Source: Achromobacter spanius
GTDB taxonomy: Bacteria > Pseudomonadota > Gammaproteobacteria > Burkholderiales > Burkholderiaceae_B
Length of the DNA stretch: 64,000 bases
Direction: 5' to 3'
NCBI RefSeq assembly: GCF_002812705.1
Contig: NZ_CP025030.1
Span: 682,001 to 746,000, forward strand
Positions within the stretch are counted from its first letter, which is position 1. Every line of letters starts with the position of its first letter. Of this stretch, positions 9,179 to 16,460 are shown piece by piece. Position numbers and translations under genes: made by a program. The notes under the pieces were generated by a model. The model was not told where the DNA came from. It did no database searches and saw only the letters and a list, made by a program, of their open reading frames with translations.

Positions 9179-9850
9179 ATGCGCATTCTGCTGGTCGAGG
9201 ACAACCTCGATCTGGGCGATACCGTGGAAAGCAAGTTGCGGTCCGCCGGCCATAGCGTTCAATGGGTGCGCGACGGCGTAGCCGCCTTGCGCTGGGGGCT
9301 GGACGAGACCTGGGACGCGCTGGTGCTGGACATCAACCTGCCTGGCAAGGACGGGTTCCTGGTCATCCGGGAACTGCGCGCCGCCGGGGTCGACGCCCCC
9401 GTGCTGGTCATGACCGCGCGCGCGGAAATCGAAGACAAGATCGACATGCTGGACCTGGGCGCCGACGACTACCTGGTCAAGCCCTTCGACCTGCGCGAAC
9501 TCGAAGCCCGGCTGCGTGCGCTCATGCGGCGGCCCGCCGGGCAGACCAGCAGCACTACGTCCTACGGCAATCTGAGCCTGGACCTGGCCGGGCGCAGCGT
9601 CACGCTTGCCGGCGCGCCGCTGGAACTGGGCCGGCGCGAATTCCGCTTGCTGGAGATCCTGCTGGGCCGCATTGGCCAGACCGTGGCCAAGGAACGGCTG
9701 ATGAACCAACTGTTCGACCTGGACGATGGCTCGCTCAACGCGCTGGAACTGTTGATTTCGCGGTTGCGCAAGAAGCTGGCGGGCGCGTCGATCGACATCG
9801 TTACCGTGCGCGGCGTTGGCTATCAGGTCCGCAGCCATGAGCATTCCTGA
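9179..9850 (+). CDS. OmpR/PhoB-family response regulator
   Basis: Two-component transcription factor of 223 residues, TctD/QseB-like. The receiver domain (1-115) has the acidic pocket (VEDN), phospho-acceptor Asp51 in LVLDINLPG and the conserved LVKPFD lysine near 100. A winged-helix DNA-binding domain (about 125-220) includes LGRREFRLLEILL and VRGVGYQV. The stop overlaps the start of the next gene, a histidine kinase, by 14 bp, so the two are translationally coupled. Its most likely target is the adjacent transporter operon, where a PhoB-type direct repeat is visible at 12351-12369. Confidence 0.95.
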   Translation: MRILLVEDNLDLGDTVESKLRSAGHSVQWVRDGVAALRWGLDETWDALVLDINLPGKDGFLVIRELRAAGVDAPVLVMTARAEIEDKIDMLDLGADDYLVKPFDLRELEARLRALMRRPAGQTSSTTSYGNLSLDLAGRSVTLAGAPLELGRREFRLLEILLGRIGQTVAKERLMNQLFDLDDGSLNALELLISRLRKKLAGASIDIVTVRGVGYQVRSHEHS

Positions 9851-12335
9851 AAGCGCCTCGATCCGGCGCCGCGTCTTCACGCTGGGCGCCGCGCTATTGG
9901 CCTGCGCGCTGATCGGCCTGGTGTTTTTCTTGCGGGGCTATGCGCATCGCGCGGCGGAACAGGCGTTCGACCGCTTGCTGGCCGCGTCGGCGTTGACGAT
10001 CGCGGGCTCGGTGCAGATCGACGACGAAGGCGTGACGGTGGAGCCGCCCGTGTCGTCACTGGCCATGCTGTCCAGCGGCGAGCGCGTGTTCTACGAAGCC
10101 CGCACCTCTAACGGCCGGCTGATCACCGGTTACGGCGACCTGGCCCCCAACCTGCCGCTGGCCCTGGCGGCCACGCCGGTATTCGCCTATGTGACCTATC
10201 ACAACGAACCCGTGCGCGTGGCCACCGTGGGGCGCCTGGTGTCGGCCAGCCAGCACGCAGGTTGGGTCACGGTGCGGGTGGCGGAAACGCTGGGCTCGCG
10301 CGACGCCCTGGCCGATGAAATCCTGGGGCGCGGCGTGCTGCCGCTGCTGATCATGTCCTTGGTGGCGCTGGGCCTGCTGTGGTTCGGCGTGCAACGCGCG
10401 TTTGCCCCGCTGGCCGTGCTGGAACGCGAACTGCGCACGCGCGCGCCCGAAGACCTGACCCCCGTCACCACGCCGGTGCCGCGCGAAGTGCGGCGGCTGG
10501 TCGAAGCGCTTAACGCCTTCATGCAACGCCTGTCCGTCATCATGGATACCTTGCACACGCTGGTGGCCGACGCCACGCATCAAGTGCGCACGCCGCTGGC
10601 GTCGCTGCGCGCGCAGGCCGAAGTGGCGCTGGACGAAACCGACCCCAAGCGGCTGCGCGAACGCATCACGCGCATTCACCTGAACGCCACGCACGCCAGC
10701 CAGCTGATCAACCAACTGCTGATGGACGCCACCATCACGCACCGGCTGGGCAAAGGCCCACCCGGGCCGGTGGGCGTGGCGGAAACCATCAACGAAACGC
10801 GCCGCCGCATCGGGCCGCTTGAAGCCCGGCGCCTGCGCATCGACATCGCCCCCGAGGTGCGACGCGCGCGTGTGTCAGGCGACCGCGTGGCGCTGCGCGA
10901 AATGCTGCGCAACCTGGTTGATAACGCCCTGCGCTATGCGCCGGATGGCACGGTGGACATCCAGGCCACACCGGTCGCGGGGTTCCGCGTGGCGTTGACG
11001 GTGTCCGACCGAGGGCCGGGCATTTCCGACGACGAGAAAGAAGCCGTGCAGCAGCGCTTCACCCGGGGCCGCGCGGGCGAATCGCAACCGGGTTCCGGCT
11101 TGGGGCTGGCCATTGTGCGGTCGGTGGCAACGGCGCATGGCGGTTCGCTCTGGCTGCAAGACCGGCCGGGCGGCGGGCTGTCGGCCCGCGTCATCCTGCC
11201 GCTGCTGCCCCAACCCGCCGGCCGTGGCCTGATGACCTGGCTGGGCGCCGCGTGCACCGCCTTGCTGTTGCTGGCCGGCGCGCCCGACCACGCGCAGGCG
11301 GCGGAGCTGCATGAAATCGTCACCCGCTACCCCGCGCCGCAGCCCACGTCGCGCACGCTGGTGATCGCTGGCCCAACCGACACGCCGGTCGTCGCGCCGC
11401 TGATCCAGGGGTTTCAGTCGCAGCGGCCCGACGTCACCGTCGTGTATCGCGAAATCAGCAGCCGTGATCTGTACGAAGCCACCATCGACGGACGCCTGAC
11501 GCAGGTGGACGTGCTGATGAGTTCGGCGTCCGACCTGCAAATCCGCTTGGCCAACGATGGTTACGCGCAAAGCTACGCTTCGCCCTACGCTGCCAAGCTG
11601 CCTTCCTGGGCGGTCTGGCGCCACGAGGTCTACGGCTTCACGTTTGAACCCGCGGTGATCGTCTACAACCCCAAGCGCTTTAGCGAAGCCACGGTGCCGC
11701 GCTCGCGCCAGGACATCCTGCGCCTGTTGGAACGCGAGCAGGCCAGCCTGCAAGGCCGCGTGGGCACCTACGACATCGCCACCAGCAGCGTGGGTTACCT
11801 GCTGGCCGAACAGGACGAACTGGTGTCATCCAACTTCTGGGGTCTGGCCAACGCGATGGGCCAGGTGGGCGTGCGCCTGTCGCCTACCAGCGCCCAGATC
11901 CTGGATGCCATCGAGCACGATGAACTGGATCTGGCCTACAACATCCTGGGTTCGTACGCGCTGTCGCGCGAGGCTACGGGCAGCAAGATCGGCGTGGTCT
12001 TTCCACAGGACTACGTGCTGGTGCTGGCGCGCTCGGTGTTGATATCGCGGCGCGCGCCCAGCCCTGACCTGGCGCGCGCGCTGGTGGATTGGCTGCTGTC
12101 GCCTGCCGGCCAACAGGTGGCGTCCAGCCACGCCGCGCTGGGGTCCATCATGGAAGACACGCCCGGGCGCTGGACGTCCGAGGCCGTGCTGGCACGCTCG
12201 CAAGGCATTGTGCAGCCCGTGGTGCTGAGCCCCGCGCTGCTGGTGGGCCTGGACCAACGACGGCATTCCCGCTTCGTGCAGAACTGGGTGCGCCTGGTGA
12301 CCGATACGCCCAAGCGGCCGGGGGATTACCCCTAG
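9837..12335 (+). CDS. Histidine kinase fused to a C-terminal periplasmic substrate-binding domain
   Basis: Unusual 832-residue sensor. From the ATG at 9837: TM1 about 13-32, a periplasmic loop, TM2 about 165-185, a HAMP-like linker, HisKA with the phospho-acceptor in DATHQVRTPLAS (His248), and HATPase with the N-box LRNLVDNALRYAPDG (about 358-372) and G-box GSGLGLAIV (about 420-428). In the same frame follows a third hydrophobic, signal-like segment, MTWLGAACTALLLLAG (from 466), then a complete class I solute-binding domain (about 490-832). That domain resembles the binding protein encoded next (shared YNILGSYA, EPAV.YN and TYDI blocks). Predicted topology puts it in the periplasm, tethered to the kinase C-terminus. 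It could have arisen by fusion of two genes; no stop or frameshift separates them. Confidence 0.9.
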   Translation: MSIPESASIRRRVFTLGAALLACALIGLVFFLRGYAHRAAEQAFDRLLAASALTIAGSVQIDDEGVTVEPPVSSLAMLSSGERVFYEARTSNGRLITGYGDLAPNLPLALAATPVFAYVTYHNEPVRVATVGRLVSASQHAGWVTVRVAETLGSRDALADEILGRGVLPLLIMSLVALGLLWFGVQRAFAPLAVLERELRTRAPEDLTPVTTPVPREVRRLVEALNAFMQRLSVIMDTLHTLVADATHQVRTPLASLRAQAEVALDETDPKRLRERITRIHLNATHASQLINQLLMDATITHRLGKGPPGPVGVAETINETRRRIGPLEARRLRIDIAPEVRRARVSGDRVALREMLRNLVDNALRYAPDGTVDIQATPVAGFRVALTVSDRGPGISDDEKEAVQQRFTRGRAGESQPGSGLGLAIVRSVATAHGGSLWLQDRPGGGLSARVILPLLPQPAGRGLMTWLGAACTALLLLAGAPDHAQAAELHEIVTRYPAPQPTSRTLVIAGPTDTPVVAPLIQGFQSQRPDVTVVYREISSRDLYEATIDGRLTQVDVLMSSASDLQIRLANDGYAQSYASPYAAKLPSWAVWRHEVYGFTFEPAVIVYNPKRFSEATVPRSRQDILRLLEREQASLQGRVGTYDIATSSVGYLLAEQDELVSSNFWGLANAMGQVGVRLSPTSAQILDAIEHDELDLAYNILGSYALSREATGSKIGVVFPQDYVLVLARSVLISRRAPSPDLARALVDWLLSPAGQQVASSHAALGSIMEDTPGRWTSEAVLARSQGIVQPVVLSPALLVGLDQRRHSRFVQNWVRLVTDTPKRPGDYP

Positions 12336-12350
12336 CCGCCGACCGCCGCC

Positions 12351-12385
12351 CTGACAGGACGGTGACAGACGCCGCCTCCTAAGAT
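12351..12385 (+). promoter_or_regulatory. Predicted PhoB-type regulator box and -10 of the transporter operon
   Basis: Two direct heptamers, CTGACAG (12351-12357) and GTGACAG (12362-12368), start 11 bp apart, the helical spacing bound by OmpR/PhoB-family dimers. TAAGAT (12380-12385) follows 11 bp after the second copy and is a plausible -10; there is no good -35, as in activator-dependent PhoB promoters. It lies 57 bp upstream of the binding-protein start. This is inference from spacing and position. Confidence 0.5.
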
Positions 12386-12441: not shown

Positions 12442-13539
12442 ATGCTTGCCAAGTCCCAACTGGCGGCCGCCTGCGCCGCTGCATTCGCCATCGCCACCGG
12501 CAGCGCCTTCGCGCAGGCCGCGCCGGCGGGTTACCCGGCCGACTATCAAAAAATCCTGGACGGCGCCAAGAAGGAAGGCAAGGTCGTCATCTATTCGACC
12601 ACCGACACCAAGGCCGCCGGCCCCATCATCAAGGGCTTCGAAGCGCTGTATCCGGGCGTCAAGGTCGAATACAACGACATGAACAGCACCGAGCTCTACA
12701 ACCGCTACATCAGCGAACAGGCGGCGGGTGGCAGCAGCGGCGACGTGGTCTGGAGTTCGTCCATGGATTCCGCCTTGAAGCTGGCCAGCGACTACGCGCT
12801 GCAGTACAAGTCGCCCGAAGCCGGCAAGCTGCCTGCCTGGGCGGTGTGGAAGGATTCGGCCTACGGCACGACCTACGAGCCGGCCGTGTTCATATACAAC
12901 AAGCGCCTGATCGCCGCCAACGAAGTGCCGACCACGCACGGCGCCCTGGCCAAGCTGATTGCCAGCCAGCCGGACAAGTTCAAGAACAAGGTCACCACCT
13001 ACGACATTGAAAAATCGGCCGTGGGCTTCATGCTGGCCGTGCAGGACAAGGCCAACGACCCCAAGTATTTCGACACGCTGAAAGACATCGCCAAGGGCGG
13101 CCTGGTGGTGCAGTCGTCCACGGGCACGATGATGGAGCGCGTGTCGTCGGGCGAGAACCTGATCGGCTACAACATCCTGGGCTCCTACGCCGAAACGCGC
13201 GCCAAGGCCGACCCGTCGCTGGGTGTGGCCTACCCCACCGACTACGCGCTGGTGCTGTCGCGCGTGGCGTTCATCAGCAAGAAGGCCAAGCATCGCAACG
13301 CCGCCAAGCTGTGGATGGACTACCTGCTGTCGCAAAAGGGCCAGGAAATCATGGCCAATCAGGCTGACCTGGCGTCGGTGCGCGACGACATCGACGGCGA
13401 CAACGATGTGGACGGCATGACCAAGAAGCTGGGCGCCTCGCTCAAGCCGATTCCGGTCAACGAAACGCTGCTGGACTACCTGGAACAGACCAAGCGTCTG
13501 CAGTTCATCAAGGACTGGCGCGCCGCGGCCGGCAAGTAA
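12442..13539 (+). CDS. ABC transporter periplasmic substrate-binding protein (class I, AfuA/PgtC-like)
   Basis: Exported binding protein of 365 residues. The signal peptide is about 1-25, with cleavage after SAFAQA. The mature part has the class I fold with VVIYSTTDTKA near its start and YNILGSYAETR. The family includes ferric-iron, phosphonate and phosphoglycerate-type binders. The Tyr-Tyr pair typical of FbpA iron binding is not seen, so the ligand is open. Near residues 315-325 an Asp-rich loop (DDIDGDNDVDG) resembles a calcium loop and is absent from the sensor's paralogous domain. It is the first gene of an SBP-permease-ATPase operon, behind a predicted regulator box. Confidence 0.9.
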   Translation: MLAKSQLAAACAAAFAIATGSAFAQAAPAGYPADYQKILDGAKKEGKVVIYSTTDTKAAGPIIKGFEALYPGVKVEYNDMNSTELYNRYISEQAAGGSSGDVVWSSSMDSALKLASDYALQYKSPEAGKLPAWAVWKDSAYGTTYEPAVFIYNKRLIAANEVPTTHGALAKLIASQPDKFKNKVTTYDIEKSAVGFMLAVQDKANDPKYFDTLKDIAKGGLVVQSSTGTMMERVSSGENLIGYNILGSYAETRAKADPSLGVAYPTDYALVLSRVAFISKKAKHRNAAKLWMDYLLSQKGQEIMANQADLASVRDDIDGDNDVDGMTKKLGASLKPIPVNETLLDYLEQTKRLQFIKDWRAAAGK

Positions 13540-13600: not shown

Positions 13601-15379
13601 ATGCAGTCATTGCGCAGAAAATGGCAGTCCCTGCCGCGCGGCGTGGTGGTGTTGATCACGGCATTGGCCATCTACGTGCCGCTGTCGTTCATCATCATCC
13701 AGAGTTTTCTATCCGCGCCTTTCTTTGCCCCGTCCAAGGTCTTCAGCCTGGATGCGTTCCGCTTCATCTTCGCGGACCCCGATTTCTACAAGGCGCTGAA
13801 AAGCGGCTTCATCCTGGCCTTCGGGCTGGCCATCATCGCCATCCCGCTGGGCGGCATGCTGGCCTTCCTGATGATCCGCACCGACCTGCCCGGCCGCCGC
13901 TGGATCGAGCCGCTGATCCTGGTGCCGGTGTTCGTGTCGCCCATGGTGCTGGGCTTTGGCTATGTCGTGGCCGCCGGCCCCGTGGGCTTCTTCTCGATCT
14001 GGGCGCAGAACATCCTGGGCTTCGTGCCATGGAACGTCTATTCGCTGACCAGCATCGTCATCATCGCCGGCCTGACGCACGTGCCGCACGCCTATCTGTA
14101 CATCTCGTCGGCGCTGCGCAGCATGGGGTCCGACGTGGAAGAGGCCGCCCGCGTGACGGGCGCATCGCCGCTGCGCGTGATGGTGTCGGTCAGCCTGCCG
14201 ATGGTGCGCCCGGCCATGCTGTATGCCACCGTGCTGCTGTTCTTCCTGGGCCTGGAAGTGTTCGGCCTGGTGCTGGTGCTGGGCGACCCGGAAGGCAACC
14301 TGGTGCTGGCCACCTACCTGTACAAGCTGACCAACAAGCTGGGCATTCCGTCGTATCACCTGATGGCGGCCGTGGCAGTGGTCCTGATCTGCATGACGAT
14401 CCCGCTGGTGATGCTGCAACGCCGCCTGATGCGCACGGCAAACCGCTTTGTCACCGTCAAGGGCAAGGCCTCGCGCGCGCGTCCGCTGCCGCTGGGCAAG
14501 TGGCGCTGGTTGGCGGGCGCCGTGGTGGCGTTCTGGCTGCTGGTCACCATCGTGGTGCCGCTCATGGGCGTGCTGCTGCGCGCCTTCGTGTCCAACTGGG
14601 GCATGGGCGTGTCGCTCTTTGACGTGCTGTCGCTGGAAGCGTTTCGCACGGTCTTCGCGCAGCCCAACCTGATCCGCGCCATTGTGAACTCGGTGGCCAT
14701 CGGGGTGTTTGGCGGCGCGCTGGCGGTGATGTGCTACATGTTCGTGGGCCTCGCCATGCACCGCAAGCCCGACAACGTGACGCGCTTCATGGACTACAGC
14801 GTGCTGGTGCCGCGCGCCGTGCCGGGCCTGCTGGCCGGCCTGGCCTTCCTGTGGGTGTTCCTGTTTGTGCCGATGTGGCTGGACAACGCGCTGGACGTGG
14901 ACCAGAACGGCTGGCTGTCCGCGCTGCCGTTCGCCGAATGGCTGCGCGAGCACTTCATCGAATGGCTGCGCGCCATGCGCAGCACCATCTTCAGCGTGTG
15001 GCTGGCCTACACCGTGGTGTGGATGGCCTACGGGCTGCGCCTGATCTCATCCACGCTGCTGCAAGTGGGGCCGGAACTGGAAGAAGCCGCCCGCAGCGCC
15101 GGCGCGCGCCGGGGCCAGGTCACGCGCCACGTCACGGTGCCGCTGGCCAAGTACGGCCTGATCGGCTCGTGGCTGCTGATGTTCCTGATCTTCGAGCGCG
15201 AATACTCCACCGGCGTCTACCTGCTGTCGCCCGGCACGGAAACCATCGGCTCCATGCTGGTGTCGCTGTGGGCCTCGGGCGCCATCGACATCGTGGCCGC
15301 GCTTTCCTTCATCAATATCGTTCTGGTCGTGATCGGCCTGGGCATCGCCCTGCGATTCGGAGTCAAACTTCATGATTGA
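13601..15379 (+). CDS. ABC transporter permease, two fused membrane domains
   Basis: Inner-membrane permease of 592 residues with two tandem BPD_transp_1 domains, the FbpB/AfuB arrangement in which one chain forms both halves of the pore. Each half has its cytoplasmic EAA loop for ATPase docking: VEEAARVTGASPLRV near residue 180 and LEEAARSAGARRGQV near 495. About twelve hydrophobic helices are visible. It starts 62 bp after the binding protein and overlaps the ATPase start by 8 bp, indicating coupled translation. Confidence 0.95.
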   Translation: MQSLRRKWQSLPRGVVVLITALAIYVPLSFIIIQSFLSAPFFAPSKVFSLDAFRFIFADPDFYKALKSGFILAFGLAIIAIPLGGMLAFLMIRTDLPGRRWIEPLILVPVFVSPMVLGFGYVVAAGPVGFFSIWAQNILGFVPWNVYSLTSIVIIAGLTHVPHAYLYISSALRSMGSDVEEAARVTGASPLRVMVSVSLPMVRPAMLYATVLLFFLGLEVFGLVLVLGDPEGNLVLATYLYKLTNKLGIPSYHLMAAVAVVLICMTIPLVMLQRRLMRTANRFVTVKGKASRARPLPLGKWRWLAGAVVAFWLLVTIVVPLMGVLLRAFVSNWGMGVSLFDVLSLEAFRTVFAQPNLIRAIVNSVAIGVFGGALAVMCYMFVGLAMHRKPDNVTRFMDYSVLVPRAVPGLLAGLAFLWVFLFVPMWLDNALDVDQNGWLSALPFAEWLREHFIEWLRAMRSTIFSVWLAYTVVWMAYGLRLISSTLLQVGPELEEAARSAGARRGQVTRHVTVPLAKYGLIGSWLLMFLIFEREYSTGVYLLSPGTETIGSMLVSLWASGAIDIVAALSFINIVLVVIGLGIALRFGVKLHD

Positions 15380-16460
15380 GCTTTCTGTAGAAGACCTGCA
15401 CCTGGACTACGGCGACAACCCGGTGCTGAAGGGCGTGTCGATGCAACTGCGCCAGGGCGAAGTGGTGTCGCTGCTGGGACCGTCGGGCAGCGGCAAGACG
15501 ACGCTGCTGCGCGCGGTGGCCGGGCTGGAAGGCCCAAAGCGTGGCCGCATCACCATCGGCGAGCGCGTCGTCTATGACGGCGGCGCCCGCAAAGAGATTC
15601 CGGCCGAAGAGCGCAACCTGGGACTGGTGTTTCAGTCTTATGCGCTGTGGCCGCACAAGACCGTGTTTGAAAACGTGGCCTACCCGCTGAAGCTGCGCAA
15701 GGTGCCCTCGGCCGAGGTACGCGACCGGGTGCAGGCCGTGCTGGACCAACTGGGCCTGGGCAAGCTGGGCCAGCGCCATCCGCATGCGCTGTCCGGCGGC
15801 CAGCAACAGCGCGTGGCCATTGGCCGGGCGCTGGTGTACAGCCCGCCCGTCATCCTGCTGGACGAGCCGCTGTCGAACCTGGACGCCAAGTTGCGCGAAG
15901 AAGCCCGCGCCTTTCTGCGCGAACTGATCATGCGCCTGGGGCTCTCGGCCCTGATGGTGACGCATGACCAGAGCGAAGCCATGGCGATATCCGACCGCAT
16001 CCTGCTGCTGAACAACGGCAAGATCGAACAGCAGGGCACGCCGCAGGAAATGTATGGCTCGCCGTCCACGCTGTTCACGGCGGAATTCATGGGCAGCAAC
16101 AACCGGCTGGAAGGCAAGGTGATCGAACTGCGCGACGGCCGCGCCCGTATCGAAGGCCATGGCTGGGCGCTGTGGGGCAAGGCGGGCGAAGGGGTGGCCG
16201 CCGGCCAGGACGGCACCGCCGTGATCCGGGTCGAACAGGTGCGCCTGGCCGACGACCCGGACGGCAACCATCTCGACATGCCGCTCTTGACCAGCATGTA
16301 TCTGGGTGACCGCTGGGAATACCTGTTCCGCACGCCGGACGCGGATTCTCTGAACACGCTGGCCCTGCGCGCCTACGGTCCCGAAGGTCGCGATCCCGGC
16401 CCCAGCCGCCTGGCGCTGCCCGCGGACAAGGTCTGGGTTTTCCCACGTAAAAGCGCCTGA
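15372..16460 (+). CDS. ABC transporter ATP-binding protein (FbpC/PotA-type)
   Basis: Nucleotide-binding subunit of 362 residues powering the upstream permease. Walker A GPSGSGKTTLLR (about 36-47), Q-loop VFQSYALWPHKT, signature [15 protein letters not shown], Walker B ILLDEPLSNLD and the switch His in MVTHDQ are all intact. The C-terminal 120 residues form a TOBE-like regulatory domain, as in the iron, polyamine and maltose importers. The ATG overlaps the end of the permease gene. The operon ends with a strong GC hairpin 12 bp after the stop. Confidence 0.96.
   Translation: MIELSVEDLHLDYGDNPVLKGVSMQLRQGEVVSLLGPSGSGKTTLLRAVAGLEGPKRGRITIGERVVYDGGARKEIPAEERNLGLVFQSYALWPHKTVFENVAYPLKLRKVPSAEVRDRVQAVLDQLGLGKLGQRHPHALSGGQQQRVAIGRALVYSPPVILLDEPLSNLDAKLREEARAFLRELIMRLGLSALMVTHDQSEAMAISDRILLLNNGKIEQQGTPQEMYGSPSTLFTAEFMGSNNRLEGKVIELRDGRARIEGHGWALWGKAGEGVAAGQDGTAVIRVEQVRLADDPDGNHLDMPLLTSMYLGDRWEYLFRTPDADSLNTLALRAYGPEGRDPGPSRLALPADKVWVFPRKSA

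Follow-up and report, generated by a model that had tools for sequence, protein, structure and literature searches.

We describe a gene of Achromobacter spanius that encodes a sensor histidine kinase and, in the same frame, a solute-binding protein, and we propose that its product is a polyprotein: signal peptidase I would free the binding protein, which would then act as a co-receptor for the periplasmic domain of the kinase. The gene lies in a 64,000-nucleotide stretch of contig NZ_CP025030.1 (assembly GCF_002812705.1, positions 682,001 to 746,000 of the forward strand), here called the window, and all coordinates are those of the window. We put the probability of this reading, which was reached by comparing sequences, at roughly 0.68. 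It builds on what can be seen directly: a single conserved frame, a signal-peptide-like junction between the two parts, no conserved second translation start nearby, and conservation of the operon and of an operator-like repeat. The wider statement, that kinase and exported co-receptor are made strictly 1:1 as a polyprotein split by signal peptidase I, derived from coupled overlapping genes and kept across the family, seems to us nearly as probable.

Domain organization of the fused protein

The gene and the parts of its product are as follows.

9837..12335, + strand: fused sensor histidine kinase and solute-binding protein, 832 amino acids (single frame open for 832 codons)
9873..9929, + strand: transmembrane segment 1 (TM1), residues 13-31 (hydrophobicity)
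9903..10322, + strand: 2CSK_N sensor domain, residues 23-162 (Pfam PF08521)
10335..10391, + strand: TM2, residues 167-185 (hydrophobicity)
10557..10739, + strand: HisKA, residues 241-301, with the phospho-acceptor His248 at 10578-10580 (Pfam)
10878..11204, + strand: HATPase_c catalytic domain, residues 348-456 (Pfam)
11205..11300, + strand: signal-peptide-like internal segment, residues 457-488, ending Ala-Gln-Ala (predicted signal peptidase I cut between residues 488 and 489)
11301..12332, + strand: predicted mature solute-binding protein 1 (SBP1), residues 489-832, 344 amino acids (Pfam, hydrophobicity)

Every Pfam match in the fused protein exceeds Pfam's cut-offs. An earlier, sequence-only reading of this DNA had described the N-terminal part as a kinase with two TM segments, His248, an N-box and a G-box; the Pfam domains bear this out, as do the residues invariant across 63 aligned fused proteins, which include His248, Asn359, Asn363, and several G-box glycines. 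SBP_bac_11 matches residues 509-764, where SBP_bac_1, SBP_bac_6, and SBP_bac_8 match too, and the SBP1 domain is of the SBP_bac_11/6 kind. The domain order within the open frame (2CSK_N, HisKA, HATPase_c, SBP) agrees with the earlier claim of one gene in which the binding domain follows the kinase. The three most hydrophobic 19-residue windows are residues 13-31 (2.55), 167-185 (2.43), and 464-482 (1.72), the third being clearly weaker; it coincides with the third hydrophobic segment that had been placed near residues 466-485. The fourth-ranked window (1.60) falls within the binding domain.

Conservation of the fused frame

A search that initially covered 61 genomes was extended to 268 genomes of the family, and the kinase-SBP architecture, for which the sequence-only reading had proposed such a search, was recovered as an intact fused frame in 68 of them, in 10 genera and at identities down to 43%. 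This count was made by hand from the search rows, with at most three candidates scored per genome; over the searches of family, order, and class, the number scored ranged from two to four. Counts of sequences, here and throughout, are not counts of independent events. Within the genus Achromobacter the fusion is intact in 38 of 43 genomes, and the remaining 30 fused genomes come from other genera; fused relatives occur in Bordetella, Schauerella, Alcaligenes, Castellaniella, and Pigmentiphaga. Two Achromobacter genomes (G020 and G065) have the fused gene cut by contig ends, and in three of the 43 (G005, G009, and G028, the last 78% complete) it was not found. G005 and G009 are rated 100% complete; their best match, 42% identical, is a kinase at a different locus.

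We analyzed 66 of the 68 fused loci; G062 and G063 carry the fusion and lie outside this set, and a broken locus (L068, genome G200) was excluded. In each of the 66 a single frame runs through kinase and binding domain, giving proteins of 819 to 911 amino acids. This contradicts the possibility, raised in the sequence-only reading, that a frameshift or stop near 11200-11235 divides the region into two ordinary genes. Among the database proteins listed, which were the best 120 of 308 and the best 120 of 163 matches, 225 of 236 are at least 780 amino acids long.

Outside the family, no fusion was found in the search rows covering 399 genomes of the order (some of them from the family, with at most two candidates scored each) or in two overlapping samples of the class (274 and 229 genomes), for which P0235 served as a more distant query. 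Divergent fused proteins such as P0232-P0237 may derive from outside the family, and P0212, a partial protein labelled Methylobacterium, is possibly mis-binned.

The junction resembles a cleavable signal peptide

In a plain alignment of the 66 orthologs, the column of residue 488, the -1 position of the predicted cut, holds alanine in 65. The single exception, L042, is offset by one residue and has Leu-Tyr-Ala beside that column. The -3 column (residue 486) holds Val in 32 orthologs, Ala in 29, Thr in 2, and Leu, Ser, and Lys in 1 each, the lysine apparently belonging to the shifted L042. Columns 484 and 485 each contain eleven different residues.

We then sought a -3/-1 site no more than 13 residues past the strongest 12-residue core, under a loose rule (Ala at -1, a small or aliphatic residue at -3) and a strict one, (A/V)xA. 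The junction has a loose site in 66 of 66 orthologs and a strict site in 62, compared with 50 and 8 at TM1 and 13 and 1 at TM2. For reference, the signal peptides of 40 proteins of the SBP2 type (SBP2 is a second, free solute-binding protein encoded downstream; a few of the 40 come from loci without the fusion) have 40 loose and 38 strict sites. Since the loose rule is so often satisfied at TM1, the discriminating evidence is limited to the strict form and the fixed column. Over 282 distinct sequences, made up of the 66 orthologs and the database matches listed, the junction has a loose site in 280 and a strict site in 257. The two without a loose site, P0009 and P0010, have threonine at the predicted -1 position and provide a natural experiment on the importance of the site.

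The hydrophobicity of the junction, as a mean over 19 residues, is 1.84, near that of the SBP2 signal peptides (1.63), while TM1 and TM2 average 2.70 and 2.45. Net charge over the 15 residues on each side of the junction core averages +2.15 before and -0.95 after, and is greater before the core in 62 of 66 orthologs, consistent with the direction across the membrane predicted earlier, with the kinase inside and the binding domain outside. From the cleavage site to the start of the conserved domain, the spacer measures 3 to 68 residues. In separate lineages (L069 of genome G212, L034, and P0142) the linker beyond the cut has lengthened to tens of residues, with Ala, Thr, Pro, and Ser abundant among them.

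A segment anchored permanently in the membrane would not require such a site. Thus, the kept -3/-1 site and the signal-peptide-like hydrophobicity point to a cleavable signal peptide, and the third stretch is probably an internal one of this kind rather than a permanent helix. The binding protein would then probably be released and signal ordinarily, through the N-terminal periplasmic domain of the kinase. The sequence-only reading had instead envisaged a permanent third helix with the signal running backward across it, which the shape of the segment and its kept signal-peptidase site argue against.

A separate start for the binding protein had also been suggested, at an ATG in frame with the fused gene.

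11232..11234, + strand: in-frame ATG, candidate separate start (same place in 2 of 66 orthologs)

Judged by eye, this ATG has no Shine-Dalgarno-like stretch ahead of it, and with its position common to only 2 of 66 orthologs we reject it as the start of a separate exported protein. We scanned the region between the last kinase codons and the hydrophobic core for ATG, GTG, and TTG. There is no ATG in 48 of the 66 orthologs, and 14 have none of the three codons; in these 14, barring use of a less common start codon, translation of the binding protein apparently cannot begin near the junction. A second start is unlikely solely on two grounds: the candidate positions are not conserved, and these 14 orthologs offer no candidate.

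Gene neighborhood and operator-like repeat

The fused gene is flanked by the following genes and elements.

9179..9850, + strand: response regulator, OmpR type, receiver and winged helix (best NCBIfam model TctD, under cut-off)
12353..12368, + strand: operator-like direct repeat GACAGGACGGTGACAG, 11-bp period, proposed response-regulator site (conservation)
12380..12385, + strand: TAAGAT, proposed -10 element, 11 bases past the repeat (position relative to the repeat)
12442..13539, + strand: SBP2, second free solute-binding protein with its own signal peptide (Pfam)
13601..15379, + strand: permease of the ATP-binding cassette (ABC) type, two BPD_transp_1 stretches (Pfam)
15372..16460, + strand: ABC ATPase (Pfam)

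The response regulator gene lies directly 5' and the SBP2 gene 3' of the fused gene in all 66 loci (the 30 loci L001-L030 and 36 others), and in the latter 36 the permease and then the ATPase continue in order wherever the stretches extend that far. SBP2 is 33% identical to the fused protein across residues 459-819. The SBP2 gene is split over two frames in L044 (G106), as is the permease gene in L057 (G097). The excluded L068 has broken frames in the kinase end, SBP1, and the permease, which we took as decay or poor assembly.

Direct repeats with an 11-bp period are used by OmpR-type regulators. A one-mismatch search of the window for the repeat gave 2 matches against a shuffle average of 0.98, so the window by itself proves nothing; the conservation of the repeat does. 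GACAG-N6-GACAG occurs no more than 330 bases past the fused-gene stop in 59 of 66 loci, and in 65 once the 40 bases ahead of the stop are included. In L026 (G007) it lies 779 bases on, with roughly 0.7 kb of extra DNA between fused gene and operator. Elsewhere in these loci the motif has 8 matches in 956,740 bases, counting both strands, seven of which appear to be operator boxes near the stop or in L026. A TAAGAT-like hexamer follows 10 to 12 bases past the repeat in 58 of 65 loci; it lies farther away in one and was not found in six. The stop codon of the fused gene shares bases with the repeat (TGACAG) in 16 of 66 loci, which ties the end of the fused protein to the regulatory site; these are ten loci (L019, L055, L059, L061-L066, and L069) and a further six (L052-L054 and L056-L058). 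In the whole genome of 6,425,783 bp, GACAGGANNNYGACAG has one exact match, at 12353-12368, and its backward control has none. With a match unique in the genome, the response regulator probably serves mainly the adjoining transporter.

Separate-gene relatives and origin of the fusion

Among eight distant pairs in which kinase and binding protein are separate genes, the kinase stop overlaps the binding-protein start, in a different frame, in seven. The overlap is ATGA in L111, L114, and L070, eight bases long in L031, L037, and L038, and GTGA in L113. A tree of 36 kinases places all 23 fused kinases in one clade (support 94/93), beside six separate-gene kinases. In a tree of 46 binding proteins, 15 SBP2-type rows make a distinct clade of their own (100/98), and SBP1 as a recent copy of SBP2 is unsupported. 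The simplest history would be a single fusion of two genes already coupled in translation, followed by loss of the second start while the signal peptide was retained.

A second trio of regulator, kinase, and binding protein genes of the same genome lies beside a gene for a CitMHS citrate transporter (together L031:567-1907, - strand, and L031:2098-5392, + strand), whereas the fused gene adjoins an ABC operon. The trios of L031, L111 (G817), and L114 (G925) resemble the fused locus in gene order and families, and their binding proteins are 35-42% identical to SBP1; they differ in that kinase and binding protein are two genes in different frames.

In sequence, SBP1 comes closest to two sets of solved structures, 3c9h (5.7e-66) and the 7f6e group (1.1e-40). 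Both may be citrate or metal-citrate binders; the depositors' names say iron for the 7f6e group. A literature search for published evidence on the SBP1 ligand gave nothing useful. A carboxylate, perhaps metal-citrate, is our tentative candidate.

Proposed mechanism and alternatives

As expected of a polyprotein, one frame serves both products, and an internal hydrophobic core is preceded by positive charge and followed by a -3/-1 site. In the mechanism we propose, the kinase part would be made first and enter the membrane so that the sensor domain faces outward and the catalytic domain inward. The third stretch, presumably the former signal peptide of a once-separate overlapping gene, would start export in mid-protein, and a signal peptidase I cut past Ala488 would yield a free 344-amino-acid periplasmic binding protein, one per kinase. 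Ligand-loaded SBP1 may then dock onto the 2CSK_N domain, in the way that citrate-loaded BctC docks onto BctE. The kinase would phosphorylate the response regulator, which would bind the repeat at 12353-12368 and switch on SBP2, permease, and ATPase from the putative promoter.

Another fate of the third stretch would be to stay in the membrane as an anchor, with the binding domain touching the sensor domain outside or signaling via the third helix. Short hydrophobic membrane anchors exist, an anchor would hold ligand binder and sensor together, and the one open frame of all orthologs fits such a tethered receptor. However, the -1 column is kept while its neighbors drift, although a tether has no use for a -3/-1 site; the stretch past the site varies in length, and the hydrophobicity is that of a signal peptide. 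We therefore consider a tethered receptor unlikely. Partial or regulated cleavage would give tethered and free forms with different jobs, such as sensing and delivery. Sites within multi-spanning proteins may be cut less efficiently, and the locus already encodes two adjacent binding proteins, but the sequences carry no sign of two forms and SBP2 is able to serve the transporter, making this distinctly improbable.

If most of the binding protein were instead made separately from an internal start near the junction, the gene would have two ordinary products. Separate-gene relatives exist and candidate codons are common near the junction, whereas their positions are unconserved, some orthologs lack all three codons, and the ATG at 11232 is rarely shared and has no ribosome-binding stretch visible ahead of it; such a start is very unlikely to be the main source. 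An artefact joining two genes is conceivable on the ground that the unfused relatives overlap out of frame, so that one small indel could join them. A frameshift or a sequencing or assembly error is nonetheless ruled out for practical purposes by the recurrence of the fused frame in 68 family genomes and 10 genera, with most database proteins of full length, and has a negligible chance of being the explanation.

Several points weigh against the polyprotein reading. Cleavage is a prediction from sequence. The loose site rule is satisfied at TM1 in most orthologs and the proteins are alanine-rich, and 2 of the 282 sequences (P0009 and P0010) carry Thr at -1. At least one ATG, GTG, or TTG lies near the junction in 52 of 66 orthologs, at unconserved positions. 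As to the history, kinase and binding protein of L112 are on opposite strands with no such overlap, support for the fused kinase clade is slightly below the tool's own strong-support mark, and the 23 fused binding domains cluster weakly (63/35). The ligand is a guess from the citrate transporter gene at the paralogous locus and the presumed ligands of the structural relatives.

Known systems and significance

BvgS-type kinases have a venus-flytrap domain in the kinase polypeptide, ahead of the kinase, and it stays attached. In the fused protein the binding domain (509-764) lies C-terminal to the kinase core (241-456), and it is thus not a BvgS-type kinase. PgtB/PgtC, which sense phosphoglycerate, combine a kinase with a dedicated sensory binding protein; going by description, they resemble the fused system in this pairing and differ in being separate genes. 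TctD/TctE share with it a 2CSK_N kinase and a regulator whose best NCBIfam match is TctD, and JGI names several fused orthologs TctE. However, the regulator scores 205.5 bits against a cut-off of 337, short of an equivalog assignment to TctD/TctE, and TctE itself has no binding domain. Two products split from one chain at an internal signal peptide are a feature of Bradyrhizobium fbcH, the cytochrome b/c1 precursor, which our literature search did not find; fbcH makes a respiratory enzyme, whereas the fused gene belongs to a signaling system.

The closest parallel is BctC-BctE-BctD. In Bordetella pertussis, BctC carrying citrate makes contact with BctE at the kinase's periplasmic domain, which increases expression of bctCBA (PMC9602780, PMC5812351), so that a periplasmic binding protein is partner to a sensor kinase controlling transporter genes, as we propose here. 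BctC is the product of a separate gene, belongs to the TctC family and a tripartite transporter, and serves both transport and signaling; SBP1 differs in being joined to the kinase and in its family, and an extra free SBP2 accompanies the ABC transporter. As in kinases of the BctE kind, the sensor domain, here 2CSK_N, lies between two membrane helices, and an exported binding protein is encoded with the kinase, within the fused gene in 66 of 66 loci and by a neighboring gene in the relatives. By this analogy the fused system most likely works like BctC-BctE, with the co-receptor arriving within the kinase's own chain.

We found no description of a kinase-SBP fusion in the titles and abstract openings of the open-access literature searched. 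The fused proteins are annotated as 'sensor histidine kinase' in some cases and as 'extracellular solute-binding protein' in others, and similar fusions may therefore be hidden elsewhere. The operator, the one exact match in its genome, would lend itself to a clean reporter in a search for the ligand. Were cleavage incomplete, the molecules left uncut would be kinases carrying the ligand domain on the outside, beyond the catalytic domain. Bacterial polyproteins are few, and we know of none in two-component signaling. If the polyprotein reading is true, one-to-one production would fix the ratio of receptor to co-receptor, and the family suggests a route by which overlapping genes may become a fused gene that retains the old signal peptide as its cutting site.

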